A stretch of 64,000 bases of DNA from Deltaproteobacteria bacterium (GTDB lineage Bacteria > Myxococcota_A > UBA9042 > DTJE01). Where the stretch lies: positions 744,452 to 808,451 of the forward strand of contig JAKPOP010000010.1 of assembly GCA_029547805.1 (NCBI GenBank). Direction: 5' to 3'. Position 1 is the stretch's first letter; each line of letters opens with the position of its first letter. The notes below the pieces were generated by a model, which was not told the DNA's origin, made no database searches, and saw only the letters and a list, made by a program, of their open reading frames with translations. Positions 22,945 through 28,516 of the stretch are shown here, piece after piece. The position numbers and the translations under genes were made by a program.

Positions 22945-24219
22945 ATGAAGGTGCTGGTGGTCGGTCATGGGGGTCGGGAGCACGCGCTGGCCTGGCGCCT
23001 CTCCCAGAGCCCCGGGGCGGAGGTGCTGATCACGAAGGGGAACGGGGGTACCGACGACTCGGCGAAGGCCCTGCCGGTCGGCCCCAACGAGATCGATGCC
23101 CTGGTCGAGACGGCGGTGGACCGGGAGGTGGGGCTGGTCGTGGTCGGGCCCGAGACGCCGCTGGCGATGGGCCTGGCAGACCGGCTCCAGGCCCGGGGCA
23201 TCCCGGTCTTCGGACCCGTCCAGGCGGCGGCCCGGATCGAGTCCAGCAAGTCCTTCGCCAAGACCCTGATGCTGGAGGCCGGGGTCCCGACGGCCCGCCA
23301 CGAGGTCTTCGACGACCCCAATGCCGCCCTGAGGCACCTGCTCCAGTGCCCCCTGCCCGTCGTGGTAAAGGCCGACGGGCTGGCGGCAGGCAAGGGGGTC
23401 GTGGTGGCCCAGACCCGGGACGAGGCCGTCGAGGCCGTCAAGTCGTTCATGGTGGACGGGGCCCTGGGTCACGCGGGCCGGAAGGTCGTGGTCGAGGAAT
23501 TCCTCCAGGGGGACGAGGCCTCCCTCATGGTGATCACCGACGGAGAGCGGATCCTGCCGCTCCCGGGCGCCCGGGACCACAAGCGGGTCTTCGACGGCGA
23601 CGAGGGGCCCAACACCGGGGGAATGGGGGCCTACTCCCCCACCGCCCTGCTGGAGGGCGACGCCCTGGAGGACATCCTGCGACGGGTGATCCGGCCGGTG
23701 CTCGAGGAGATGGGCCGCCGGGGCATCGTCTACCAGGGGGTCCTCTACGCGGGGCTGATCATCACCCCCGAGGGACCCAAGGTGCTGGAGTTCAACTGCC
23801 GTTTCGGAGACCCGGAGACGCAGCCGTTGATGATGCGCCTGAAGGGAAACCTCCTGGAGGCGCTCCATGCCTGTACCCAGGGTCGCCTGGGGGATGTCCG
23901 CCTGGACTTCCTGGCCCAGCCGGCCATCACCGTGGTGCTGGCCACCGCCGGATATCCCGATCGGCCCCGGTCCGGCGACGTGATCGAGGGGATCGACGAG
24001 GCGGCGGCGGTCCTGGGAGTGCGGCTCTTCCACGCGGGAACCCGGCGTCTGCCCGACGGGACCCTGGTGACGGCCGGAGGTCGGGTGCTGGGGGTCACCG
24101 CCCTGGGGGACTCCTTCCGGGAGGCCCGGGGACGGGCCTACGAGGCCGCCCAGAAGGTCCGCTTCGCCGGTCGGCACTTCCGCACCGACATCGGGGCACG
24201 GCACAAGGGCCCCTTCTGA
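22945..24219 (+). CDS. purD: Phosphoribosylamine-glycine ligase (GAR synthetase)
   Basis: This enzyme is the second step of purine synthesis, joining glycine to phosphoribosylamine with ATP. The 424 residues show the N-terminal MKVLVVGHGGREHALAWRL and VVVGPETPLAMGLAD, and the ATP-grasp core FAKTLMLEAGVPT, VVVKADGLAAGKGVVVA, EFLQGDEASLMVI and DEGPNTGGMGAYSP. The catalytic VLEFNCRFGDPETQ follows, then the C-terminal domain (GVTALGDSFREARGRAYEAA). GGAGG lies at 22934-22938 before the ATG. It follows purH closely. Confidence 0.97.
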   Translation: MKVLVVGHGGREHALAWRLSQSPGAEVLITKGNGGTDDSAKALPVGPNEIDALVETAVDREVGLVVVGPETPLAMGLADRLQARGIPVFGPVQAAARIESSKSFAKTLMLEAGVPTARHEVFDDPNAALRHLLQCPLPVVVKADGLAAGKGVVVAQTRDEAVEAVKSFMVDGALGHAGRKVVVEEFLQGDEASLMVITDGERILPLPGARDHKRVFDGDEGPNTGGMGAYSPTALLEGDALEDILRRVIRPVLEEMGRRGIVYQGVLYAGLIITPEGPKVLEFNCRFGDPETQPLMMRLKGNLLEALHACTQGRLGDVRLDFLAQPAITVVLATAGYPDRPRSGDVIEGIDEAAAVLGVRLFHAGTRRLPDGTLVTAGGRVLGVTALGDSFREARGRAYEAAQKVRFAGRHFRTDIGARHKGPF

Positions 24220-24297
24220 GGCCCATCGAGGCCGATCCCCACCCCTTCTTCCCGCGATCCCCGTGCTACCATGTCGAGACCTTCCCCGGAGGCGCCC

Positions 24298-24690
24298 ATG
24301 TCCCCGACGACCCGCCTCTGTCCGGTCTGCCAGGTCCCGATGCAGACCGTGGTGCAGCATCGCCAGGAGGTCGATCAGTGTCCCCGGTGCGGCGGGCGCT
24401 TCTACGATGCCGGGGAACTGGAGTCGATGCTGCAACTGGTGCGCTGCTTCGAGGAGGTCTCGCTGGACGAGCCGGACGTCGAGTCGATTCCCGACGAGGA
24501 GGTCCGTCGAGTCGAGACCTGCCCGGTGGACGGCGCCGTGATGGAACCCCAGGACATCGCGGGGATCGTCATCGACCGATGCCCCCGATGCCAGGGCCTC
24601 TGGCTGGACCGGGGGGAAGTGGTGGCCCTGAAGATCGCCGAGGATGGCATCCGACAGCACCTGAACCTCTACCTCCGCCTGGGGAGGTGA
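24298..24690 (+). CDS. Tandem TFIIB-type zinc-ribbon protein
   Basis: The 130-residue acidic protein has two copies of the zf-TFIIB pattern. The first is CPVCQVPM…CPRCGGRFYDAGEL (about residues 8-41). The second is CPVDGAVM…CPRCQGLWLDRGEV (about 76-115). The second copy lacks one Cys of the first pair (CPVD). I start it at 24298, where GGAGG (24289-24293) is well placed, rather than at 24271. Its last codons supply the ribosome-binding site for the Doc-like gene three bases downstream, so the two form a unit. Proteins of this type bind zinc; no specific role is known. It occupies the place where a Phd-type antitoxin would be expected. Confidence 0.78.
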   Translation: MSPTTRLCPVCQVPMQTVVQHRQEVDQCPRCGGRFYDAGELESMLQLVRCFEEVSLDEPDVESIPDEEVRRVETCPVDGAVMEPQDIAGIVIDRCPRCQGLWLDRGEVVALKIAEDGIRQHLNLYLRLGR

Positions 24691-24692
24691 CC

Positions 24693-25100
24693 ATGCGTCC
24701 CTTGACCAAGCGCATGATCCTGGCCATCAATCGGTTGTCGGCCCTCTACACCGGAGGCCTCTGCAAGGAGAACGGCAACCTGCGACCCGGGGCCTCCCTG
24801 GCCTTCGTGGACCGCATCGTCCACAACGAGGTCTTCGGGCAGCCCATCTATCCCGACCTCTACCACCAGGCCGCGGCATACCTGTTCCACGTCGTGAAGG
24901 ACCACCCCTTCCTGGACGGCAACAAGCGCACCGGTCTCGCCTGTGCGCTGACCTTCCTCCAGTGGAACGGGATCGGGGTGGCCCCCCTGGACGAGGATGC
25001 GGTCTTCGACTTCGTGATCTCGGTCGCCTCGGGACCCAACCGCCCCGAGACCGAGGTCCCTCGCATCGCCGTCTGGCTCCGGGAGATGAGCCTTTCCTGA
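24693..25100 (+). CDS. Doc-like Fic-fold protein
   Basis: The 135-residue protein is one Fic domain of the death-on-curing type. The active-site motif HPFLDGNKR (71-79) is complete, with the catalytic His, the acidic residue and the Arg. IYPDLYHQAAAYLFHVVKD before it and ALTFLQWNGIGVAPLDEDA after it match Doc proteins. Doc of phage P1 phosphorylates EF-Tu, whereas larger Fic proteins AMPylate. GGGGAGG (24681-24687) is the ribosome-binding site. No Phd-type antitoxin gene is present on either side; the upstream partner is the zinc-ribbon protein. It could be a toxin whose antidote is that protein, or a housekeeping Fic enzyme. Confidence 0.82.
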   Translation: MRPLTKRMILAINRLSALYTGGLCKENGNLRPGASLAFVDRIVHNEVFGQPIYPDLYHQAAAYLFHVVKDHPFLDGNKRTGLACALTFLQWNGIGVAPLDEDAVFDFVISVASGPNRPETEVPRIAVWLREMSLS

Positions 25101-25152
25101 CGGCCGATGCCCCCACCGAGGGCACCCATGACCGGCTCCTTCCGGATCCCCC

Positions 25153-25181
25153 TTGCAGCCCCCGGGGAGGTTCCCTATCAT
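25153..25181 (+). promoter_or_regulatory. Promoter of the structured RNA
   Basis: TTGCAG (25153-25158), a 17-bp spacer and TATCAT (25176-25181) predict a start at 25188. That is exactly where the outermost base pairs of the RNA begin. Confidence 0.6.
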
Positions 25182-25187
25182 GGGGTC

Positions 25188-25371
25188 GGGTGCCCTGCGA
25201 TCGAGCCGGCGGTCGTCCAGTGGTCGAACCGCTGGTGCGTTGACTTGGGAGTCGCCCCTGCCCGTGGTGTGCAGGCCCGGCCCGGCCGGGACGCCTGAAG
25301 CGGGTACCGCGACGCCCCCCTGGTTCTTCCGGGGTTCGGGTGGACGACCCTGGCCCGGATCGCAGGGCCCC
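25188..25371 (+). ncRNA. ssrS: Candidate 6S RNA (about 184 nt, rod-like with central bubble)
   Basis: The 297-base gap between the Doc-like gene and the EEP gene holds no plausible ORF. Its ends pair: 25192-25202 with 25358-25368 is an 11-bp perfect helix, and GGG 25188-25190 can pair with CCC 25369-25371 across a bulged T. Next come GCCGG 25205-25209 with CTGGC 25350-25354 (one G-U), then a perfect 9-bp helix, 25211-25219 with 25341-25349. A central open region follows. Its 3' strand (about 25319-25340) can form a small hairpin, CCCCTGG…TCCGGGG. Inside it 25234-25242 pairs with 25310-25318 (one mismatch, one G-U), closing an apical domain. A ~184-nt RNA with a long closing stem, central bubble with 3'-strand hairpin and internal stem is the architecture of 6S RNA, the sigma-70 holoenzyme decoy. 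A different structured RNA remains possible. Confidence 0.6.
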
Positions 25372-25397
25372 ATGTCCCGCTCCCACGACATCCCCCC

Positions 25398-26630
25398 TCA
25401 GGGCACCACGTCGATCACCAGGGGGTCGTGGTCGCTGATCCGGGTCCCCTGCCAGAGGGGCCGTTCCACCACCCGGGGAGCCAGGGACCGCCGTCCACCG
25501 GAGTCCGTCCGCTCCCCGTCGCCCAGGGGCCGAAGCCCCCGGACCGCCATCCAGTCCATCCGCAGCGGGGCGACGCCGTTCCAGGGCCGCAGGCGCCACC
25601 GGAGCACCCACACGGCAACGCCCGGAAGGTGCTCCCGAACCGCGCTCTCGCTCTCGAAGGTCCCCACCTCGTACCGGAGGGTCCCCCGGGAGAGGTCGTT
25701 GCACTCCCGCCATCGGAACCCGGCCTCCTCCAGGACCCGGAAGACCGGCGTCTCGTAGACCTCCCAGGGATGCATGTAGTGGTGGATCGCATGGGGAAAA
25801 CCGCCCCGGAGCAACTTCTGCCAGAGGTTGCGCAGGAGCCCGCCGGTCGAGGAGACGTCGTAGGTGTGGGTGTTCAGGTCACCCCCGATCACCACCGGCA
25901 GGCCCTCCGGCAACGAGGCGACCAGGTCCCCCAACTGCCGGGCCCGCTGGCTGGAGGAGGCGACGCTGTCCAGATGGGCCGAGGCCAGCACCACCGGTCC
26001 CAGGGGCGTCTCGACCTGGGCCCAGAGGGCCCGCTTGGCCCCCAGGCGCTTCTCGCTGCTGTGGAACTTGTCCTTCGTGACGAAGACCGGGACGTTGCAG
26101 GCCCGCCGAAGGGGCCAGCGGCTCAGGATGGCGTTGCCATGCATCGCGTGGGTGTTCTGCCCCGATCCCCCCCGGAGCCGGTCCACCGGGTCACCCGCGT
26201 CGAGGCAGAGATAGGAGTTGCCGAAGACATGGGCCATTCCCAGGGCCTCGCCCACCTCCGCGGCGACGTGACGGTTCCCGGACCGGGCCATGCCCAGGTC
26301 CACCTCGTTGAGCATGAGGGCGTCCAGGTCCTGGAGCGCCGGATGGGTGCGCAGGATGTCGATCAGGGATTCGAGGCGCAACCCCCGCTGGATGTTCCAG
26401 GTGGCGACCCGGAGAAAGGAGATCGGCGGACAGGGGACAGGGGCCTTCGGCAGCCCGTGGACCAGGGCCGAGGTCCGGGCCTCCACCGCCTGCCGCGAGC
26501 GGTCCCAGAGGGGCGACCGTTCCAGGTCCGAACGCCGCCGAATGGCCCCGAGGGCCTCCAGAACCTCCCTGGGCAGGGGATCCGGGGGCGGAATGGGTCC
26601 TTCCAGCGGCCGCACGCCGTCTGACGACAT
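25398..26630 (-). CDS. Endonuclease/exonuclease/phosphatase (EEP) fold hydrolase
   Basis: The 410-residue protein has a ~75-residue leader and then a full DNase I-like domain. The motifs are RVATWNIQRG, LMLNEVDLGMARSGN (catalytic Glu), HGNAILSRWPL, SAHLDSV, VVIGGDLNTHTY and the final SDHDPLVI. Substrates of this fold include nucleic acids, phosphoinositides and sphingomyelin; none can be chosen here. There is no signal peptide. The start overlaps the stop of the M48 peptidase gene by one base (TGATG), and GGAGG lies 7 bases upstream, so it is the last gene of the lemA-M48-EEP operon. It converges on the candidate 6S RNA. Confidence 0.85.
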   Translation of the reverse strand: MSSDGVRPLEGPIPPPDPLPREVLEALGAIRRRSDLERSPLWDRSRQAVEARTSALVHGLPKAPVPCPPISFLRVATWNIQRGLRLESLIDILRTHPALQDLDALMLNEVDLGMARSGNRHVAAEVGEALGMAHVFGNSYLCLDAGDPVDRLRGGSGQNTHAMHGNAILSRWPLRRACNVPVFVTKDKFHSSEKRLGAKRALWAQVETPLGPVVLASAHLDSVASSSQRARQLGDLVASLPEGLPVVIGGDLNTHTYDVSSTGGLLRNLWQKLLRGGFPHAIHHYMHPWEVYETPVFRVLEEAGFRWRECNDLSRGTLRYEVGTFESESAVREHLPGVAVWVLRWRLRPWNGVAPLRMDWMAVRGLRPLGDGERTDSGGRRSLAPRVVERPLWQGTRISDHDPLVIDVVP

Positions 26631-28516
26631 CACGCCGCCTCCAGGAACGGCGGCAGGGGACAGTCCAGCGAGACGGCCACAAGGCGGGTCAGTTCCGCCT
26701 CCCGGAGGGTCACCCGGCCATCGGCGAGGACCAGCCGGGTGAGGCGGTCCAGGGCCATCCGCCGGGTCTCGAAGGACGCGCGGGCCAGGCGATCCAGCAC
26801 CTGCCCGAGCAGGGGCAGGCCCTCCGTTCGCACCCGGGCCAGGGCCTCCCGGAGGCGTTCGACGGGCCTCCCGCTGGCGGCGGCCAGGGCCTCCAGGTCC
26901 TCTCCCGACTCCCCATAGAGGGACACGCCCGCCAGCAGGTGGTCCAGGTCGAAGGTCGTGGCCCGTCCCCGCCCGCCCGGAGGCAGGGGACCCGCGGCCA
27001 GGCGCCTCTGGACCAGCCGCAGCACGATGAACTCGAAGAGGCTCAAGGTCCGGTCCGCCGCCGCCAGGGCCTCCAGACGCCGGATCAGGTCGGCCCGCTG
27101 CCCGTCGTCCAGCAGCCGCAGGGCCGGGGTGGCCAGGTCCAGCAACGGCAATCGCCAGGCCGGTCCCAGGGTCTCCAGGTGGGACATCCAGCGGTGCACG
27201 GCCTCCCAGCCCTCGGACCCCAGTTCCCGTTGCAGGTACTCCCGCTGGGACCGCAGGACCTCGGGGTCCTGACGATCCATCAGCAGCGCCAGGACCAGGG
27301 CCGCCGCCCCCACGGGCCGGTGCAGGTCCTCTTCCATTTCCCCTTCCAGGCGCGACCGCATCGCGACGCCCTGCGCCACGTGGTCGGCGGAGGGGGCCCC
27401 GACCCGGGCCATCACCGCCTGAGGCTGCACGGCAATGCGGCCGTCGGAGAACCCGGCGGCCCCGGAGGGGTCGGAGGCCATGGACGGCGGGACCGATGCC
27501 GCGGCGGCCTCGGGGGCGAATCCCGGATCCAGGCGACGGATCCGCTCCTCCAGGGGCGGATGGGTGGCCAGGAGCCCCCCGAGCCAGGACCGCTGGCCCT
27601 CGCCGAACAGGAAGTGCCCCACCTCGATGGACCGGGGCGCCTGGAGGCGCGACCCGTGGACGAATCCCGCGATGCGCTTGAGGGCCCCGGCGATCCCGAA
27701 GGGATTCCGGGTGAACTGGACCGCCGAGGCGTCAGCCAGGTATTCCCGCTGCCGGGAGATGGCCGCCTGGATGATCCGCCCGACGAAGACACCGATGTAG
27801 CCGACGATCATCAGCACCAGGCCCATCAGCACGATGGCCGCCGCCGCATTGCCGTCCTTCTTGGAGGAACGGACCCGGGTCCGGCCGGCGAACTGGACCA
27901 TGAAACGGCCCACCACGGCCATGGCCAGGATGCCGAAGATCACCCCCATCAGGCGGATGTTGAGCCGCATGTCGCCGTTCAGGATGTGGCTGAACTCGTG
28001 GGCGATGACGCCCTGCAGCTCGTCGCGGCTCAGGGTCTGGAGCGCCCCTCGGGTGACGGCCACGGCGGCATCCTCCGGGCGGAAGCCGGCGGCGAAGGCG
28101 TTGATGCCCTCCTCCTCCTCCAGTACGTAGATGGCCGGCACCGGGACTCCCGAGGCGATGGCCATCTCCTCCACGACGTTCCGCAGCCGCTTCTCCAGCG
28201 GGTCCCGGGTCTCGGGCGAGACCGGGCGCCCCCCGAGCATCTCCGCCACGGCGCTCCCGCCGGACCGGAGCGTGAGGATGCGGAAGCCCGACGCCAGCCC
28301 GACGAAGACCGCCGTGGCCCCGACGATCCAGGCAAACCACTCCGGGTCCCACCAGGAGGCCCCGGGAGGCGCCGACTCGCCGCCGTTCAGGTAGATCAGG
28401 CGAGCGACCAGGTAGAGCGTGGCGCCAATGCCCAGCACGGCCAGCCCGAACAGCACCACCAGCCACCGGGTCCTCTTCCGGGCCTGCTCCTGGTGCTCGA
28501 AGAAACTGGTGGACAT
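26630..28516 (-). CDS. M48-family membrane metallopeptidase (HtpX-like) with long C-terminal extension
   Basis: The 628-residue protein has two N-terminal membrane segments (about 18-42 and 62-80). The peptidase domain contains INAFAAGF, the zinc motif AHEFSHILNGD (HEFSH at about 170) and, after two more spans, REYLADASAVQFTRNP, whose Glu is the third zinc ligand. THPPLEERIRRL ends the HtpX-like part at about 330. The remaining ~290 residues are helical, Leu/Arg-rich and unlike E. coli HtpX. HtpX-type peptidases degrade damaged membrane proteins. GGAGG lies 7 bases before the ATG. The gene follows lemA by 41 bases, a pairing seen in many bacteria. Confidence 0.9.
   Translation of the reverse strand: MSTSFFEHQEQARKRTRWLVVLFGLAVLGIGATLYLVARLIYLNGGESAPPGASWWDPEWFAWIVGATAVFVGLASGFRILTLRSGGSAVAEMLGGRPVSPETRDPLEKRLRNVVEEMAIASGVPVPAIYVLEEEEGINAFAAGFRPEDAAVAVTRGALQTLSRDELQGVIAHEFSHILNGDMRLNIRLMGVIFGILAMAVVGRFMVQFAGRTRVRSSKKDGNAAAAIVLMGLVLMIVGYIGVFVGRIIQAAISRQREYLADASAVQFTRNPFGIAGALKRIAGFVHGSRLQAPRSIEVGHFLFGEGQRSWLGGLLATHPPLEERIRRLDPGFAPEAAAASVPPSMASDPSGAAGFSDGRIAVQPQAVMARVGAPSADHVAQGVAMRSRLEGEMEEDLHRPVGAAALVLALLMDRQDPEVLRSQREYLQRELGSEGWEAVHRWMSHLETLGPAWRLPLLDLATPALRLLDDGQRADLIRRLEALAAADRTLSLFEFIVLRLVQRRLAAGPLPPGGRGRATTFDLDHLLAGVSLYGESGEDLEALAAASGRPVERLREALARVRTEGLPLLGQVLDRLARASFETRRMALDRLTRLVLADGRVTLREAELTRLVAVSLDCPLPPFLEAA

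Follow-up and report, generated by a model that had tools for sequence, protein, structure and literature searches.

Many bacteria restrain their main RNA polymerase with a small RNA, 6S RNA. In Escherichia coli the pRNA start on this template is U44, and in Bacillus subtilis 6S-1 the pRNA starts opposite C40 (PMC8876501). For B. subtilis 6S-1 and for the 6S RNAs of lactic acid bacteria, the 3' side of the central bubble has been described as carrying a hairpin (PMC8876501, PMC8414754). Ms1 of Actinobacteria, a 6S-like rod, binds the core enzyme of RNA polymerase (PMC9130861, PMC4191392). Here we compare these systems with a locus in an uncultured Myxococcota host, located in a stretch of 64,000 nucleotides that was analysed as a whole (hereafter the window); its features are collected in Table 1.

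Homology to 6S RNA

An earlier note on this DNA had proposed a probable 6S RNA from size and architecture, and had suggested a covariance search with the Rfam 6S family. Indeed, when we scanned the whole window against all 4227 Rfam families using cmscan, RF00013 (6S/SsrS RNA) matched positions 25226-25337 of the plus strand with 56.0 bits, above its gathering score of 46.4 (E 2e-8). Besides RF00013, no Rfam family scored above threshold in the window, and in a local repeat of cmscan the rivals remained at chance level. A search of the whole 4.08-Mb genome with RF00013 found a single 6S copy. The alignment is local and covers model positions 38-149 only, because the closing stem, which is very GC-rich in comparison with RF00013 and lies beyond the matched part of the general model, differs greatly from the general consensus. 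A second covariance model, R1, built from 13 family members, aligns over its full length with 25189-25372, scoring 146.8 bits, the window sequence being one of these 13 training sequences. In same-class genomes of other families, none of which was used for building R1, it scores 47-100 bits. Because the rod is near-symmetric, R1 also gives 25-32 bits on the antisense strands of some 6S genes (L002, L016, L017, L022 and L023).

The RNA resembles the described members of the family in general layout. The annotated length of E. coli ssrS, 184 nt, equals that of the window 6S RNA, and the rod of about 180-200 nt with closing stem, central bubble and apical stem is common to RF00013, E. coli ssrS and the window, as are the motifs GGTGNGCA, GCCTNAA and a CACCT-like sequence. 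The hairpin in the 3' bubble strand is a likeness to B. subtilis 6S-1 and the 6S RNAs of lactic acid bacteria. The G+C content of the segment is 74%.

Table 1. Features of the 6S RNA locus and adjoining genes (window coordinates).
Feature	Position	Strand	Basis or remark
Zn-ribbon protein gene	24271-24690	+	directly before Fic/DOC gene
Fic/DOC gene, 135 aa	24693-25100	+	motif HPFLDGNKRTG; stop at 25100
-35 element TTGCAG	25153-25158	+	TTGCA-like hexamer, same place in most relatives
-10 element TATCAT, 17-bp spacer	25176-25181	+	recurs in relatives
6S RNA (ssrS), ~184 nt	25188-25371	+	RF00013 core match; R1 25189-25372; ends approximate
5' arm, 11-bp outer closing helix	25192-25202	+	conserved helix 1, 96.2% of cells paired
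5' arms, 5-bp and 9-bp inner closing helices	25205-25219	+	own arms beat cross-species arms
Central bubble, 5' strand (promoter mimic)	25220-25246	+	RF00013 match, fold
Predicted pRNA-start template base	25233	+	aligns with E. coli U44; predicted pRNA 5'-AGCGGUUCGACCACUGGACG
Apical stem (internal loops, terminal loop)	25247-25317	+	RF00013 match, fold, covariation
Hairpin in central bubble 3' strand (CCCUGG...CCGGGG)	25318-25334	+	fold
3' arms, 9-bp and 5-bp inner closing helices	25341-25354	+	arm-swap test
3' arm, 11-bp outer closing helix	25358-25368	+	same conserved helix 1
Endonuclease/phosphatase gene	25398-26633	-	convergent with Fic/DOC gene

Structure and its conservation in relatives

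The end helices of 11, 5 and 9 bp read in the earlier note are all exact on direct reading of the segment. The outer helix pairs GCCCTGCGATC with GATCGCAGGGC perfectly over 11 bp, the middle helix pairs GCCGG (25205-25209) with CTGGC (25350-25354) over 5 bp including one G-U, and the inner helix pairs GGTCGTCCA (25211-25219) with TGGACGACC (25341-25349) perfectly over 9 bp. The 184-nt segment has a minimum free energy (MFE) of -115.8 kcal/mol, compared with -93.3 +/- 4.2 for dinucleotide shuffles (z -5.36), and none of 200 shuffles was as good. Besides the local extent of the RF00013 match, three observations count against a canonical 6S reading: the 5' bubble strand forms a weak hairpin in the MFE fold, the core folded without the closing stem is not unusually stable (z -1.2), and an intrinsic terminator, looked for downstream of the gene, was not found.

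The earlier note had also named helix conservation in relatives as a check. We assessed a structure of 36 pairs by covariation on an alignment of the 13 family sequences, in which 94.9% of pair cells hold. Double-sided changes were found in 11 pairs and 27 cells, versus 5.7 and 7.5 in shuffles, and 0 of 500 shuffles reached either number. When the partner was slid by 1-3 columns, pairing fell to 40-47%. A further helix proposed by RNAalifold, columns 20-28 with 49-57 (the 5' closing arm with the 5' bubble strand), was left out because single folds pair those arms with the 3' end. Since column-wise alignment of the closing stem across genera is impossible, this stem was tested by swapping arms among 30 species; own arms had a mean of -44.3 kcal/mol compared with -31.8 for arms of other species. 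The closing arms of the window reach -59.6 kcal/mol with their own partner, better than with all 29 foreign partners; the lowest value among shuffled arms is about -48. Compensatory change that conserves the structure, in the alignment and in the arm test, thus supports membership of RF00013.

Promoter-like site, predicted pRNA start and proposed mechanism

The elements TTGCAG and TATCAT, spaced by 17 bp, had been read in the earlier note as a promoter with a start at 25188. Both are present, 6 bases separate TATCAT from G25188, and the position recurs in the family. The pair agrees with the sigma-70 consensus at 8/12 positions; a simple sigma-70 scanner with a threshold of 9/12 called no promoter. 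A like -35/-10 pair lies just upstream in most relatives, and in nearly all family members, ending about 6-10 bases before the RNA start. Over 30 loci the promoter score, which also takes TTGCA as a form of the -35 element, averages 8.5/12 versus 3.6 for shuffled upstream regions; in the diverged family f6 the pair is weaker or missing. The 6S RNA is probably transcribed from TTGCAG-17-TATCAT by the housekeeping holoenzyme. The gene, its homology, its structure with the conservation of that structure, and the position of the promoter are demonstrated here.

The base predicted as the template for the pRNA start, U25233, is invariant in the 13 family sequences. Nearly all relatives in the class retain it, and the same holds for the bubble edges C25230 and GGG 25247-25249. 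The context of U44 in E. coli is GAGCCG-A-U, and that in the window is GAACCG-C-U, with U25233 in the same place; the start template of B. subtilis 6S-1 is C40, whereas the window has a predicted U. This conserved start position in the 5' bubble strand, which concerns position and not synthesis, also speaks for membership of RF00013.

Given the conserved U25233, the bubble edges and the 3'-strand hairpin, we expect the mechanism here to be holoenzyme sequestration with pRNA-driven release. By analogy, the rod with its large central bubble would imitate an open promoter and would fill the active site of the holoenzyme that carries primary sigma, and growth-gene transcription would drop as nutrients run out. 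When NTPs return, the polymerase would copy the bubble, starting opposite U25233, and would make a short pRNA predicted as 5'-AGCGGUUCGACCACUGG..., that is, a product beginning 5'-AGCGGUUCGA. This pRNA would then refold the 6S RNA, releasing the enzyme. We infer transcription, polymerase binding, pRNA synthesis and physiology from other 6S RNAs.

The binding partner here is only predicted, and Ms1 provides a precedent for such a fold taking another partner (PMC4191392, PMC9130861); a 6S-like RNA might have core polymerase, or the holoenzyme of an alternative sigma factor, as its partner in place of the primary-sigma holoenzyme. We give this a very slight chance, as the matched family is RF00013 with no other RNA family near, and the conservation of both the pRNA-start U and the bubble edges fits a holoenzyme template that is transcribed. 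Ms1 itself has the rod shape in common with the window 6S RNA, its partner being the core enzyme; an Ms1-type RNA was rejected, since RF00013 is the sole family matched and the Ms1-type Rfam model found no match in the window, where nothing but 6S rose above chance level. That the gene is a decayed or unexpressed 6S copy is extremely unlikely and was likewise rejected: it is the sole copy in the genome, its 11-, 5- and 9-bp helices and its promoter are intact, and compensatory changes run across the family. We are close to certain that 25188-25371 on the plus strand is a free-standing canonical 6S RNA gene, probably with the proposed promoter, whose RNA is expected to trap the holoenzyme and to release it through pRNA.

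Genomic neighbourhood and distribution in the phylum

The gene order in the window is purH-purD-Zn-ribbon gene-Fic/DOC-6S, followed by the endonuclease gene on the opposite strand. Thus, in contrast to the order zapA-ssrS-fau in E. coli, the window 6S gene lies beside purD, Fic and endonuclease genes. The interval that separates the Fic/DOC gene from the endonuclease gene, 25101-25397, was described in the earlier note as the only large gene-free gap. The gap is indeed there (297 bp), but its being the only large one is not confirmed: an ORF chooser, crude and too coarse to decide the point, leaves other stretches unassigned, some of them longer. The convergent neighbours (Fic/DOC on the plus strand, endonuclease on the minus strand) and the high G+C content would suit a chance GC-rich inverted repeat, for example a bidirectional terminator, a reading whose probability is practically nil and which is refuted by homology, given the covariance match, the covariation and the family-wide presence beside other neighbours. 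Neither the Fic/DOC nor the Zn-ribbon gene was found adjoining 6S in relatives, and in several family genomes purD, the endonuclease gene or both flank it. This position beside one or both of them is retained in several genera, but relative to these two neighbours the direction of 6S in genus g5 is opposite to that in the window's genus (L010, L014 and L017 compared with L001 and L021; window 22945-26633), apparently through in-place inversion of the 6S gene with its promoter.

All 13 genomes of the family, the window's own included, carry one RF00013 match, as do 33 of 53 relatives overall; E. coli, B. subtilis, Caulobacter and Synechococcus, used as controls, all register as 6S-positive. Across a sample of the phylum Myxococcota, 122 of 237 genomes match RF00013, and the presence of 6S here is therefore ordinary. 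A DNA pattern specific to the clade matched four named records, one of them a Myxococcota MAG (JAGOKF010000060.1) and the other three MAGs labelled uncultured Myxococcales, which places the window in an uncultured member of the Myxococcota. The view that this is a sparsely described group holds for the literature searched, where no open-access paper dealt with 6S RNA of myxobacteria, but since RF00013 detects 6S in about half of the 237 genomes, its presence is to be expected.

In sister family f6 of the same class (L027-L030 and L037-L043), RF00013 scores 24.6-49 bits or misses the RNA. A further model, R2, built from three f6 sequences, detects convincing homologues of 6S in 12 genomes of f6, five of which were missed by RF00013 (G022, G029, G036, G039 and G043). 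Of three R2 loci that were re-read, one scores 24.6 bits with RF00013, and the other two give no match to it even at E 1. Therefore, the absence of 6S in Myxococcota as judged by RF00013 is partly false. One f6 genome (G025, L040:1306-1473, minus strand) carries, directly downstream of the intact gene, a second, decayed and incomplete copy of the 6S 3' half in tandem, which scores 40.9 bits with R2. There is a slim chance that Myxococcota 6S RNAs, given the unusually strong GC-rich closing stem of the window 6S RNA and the strongly diverged forms of the sister family, have changed binding partner or release mechanism, for example towards a developmental or alternative sigma factor.

To conclude, the window 6S RNA is an additional member of a well-known family in an uncultured Myxococcota host, and nothing in 6S RNA biology as such is altered by it. 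Through it, a family of uncultured Myxococcota on which we found no study gains a well-supported 6S RNA whose promoter is conserved and whose pRNA is predicted. Half of the sampled phylum has a recognisable 6S RNA, and part of the remainder represents diverged 6S RNAs rather than absence.
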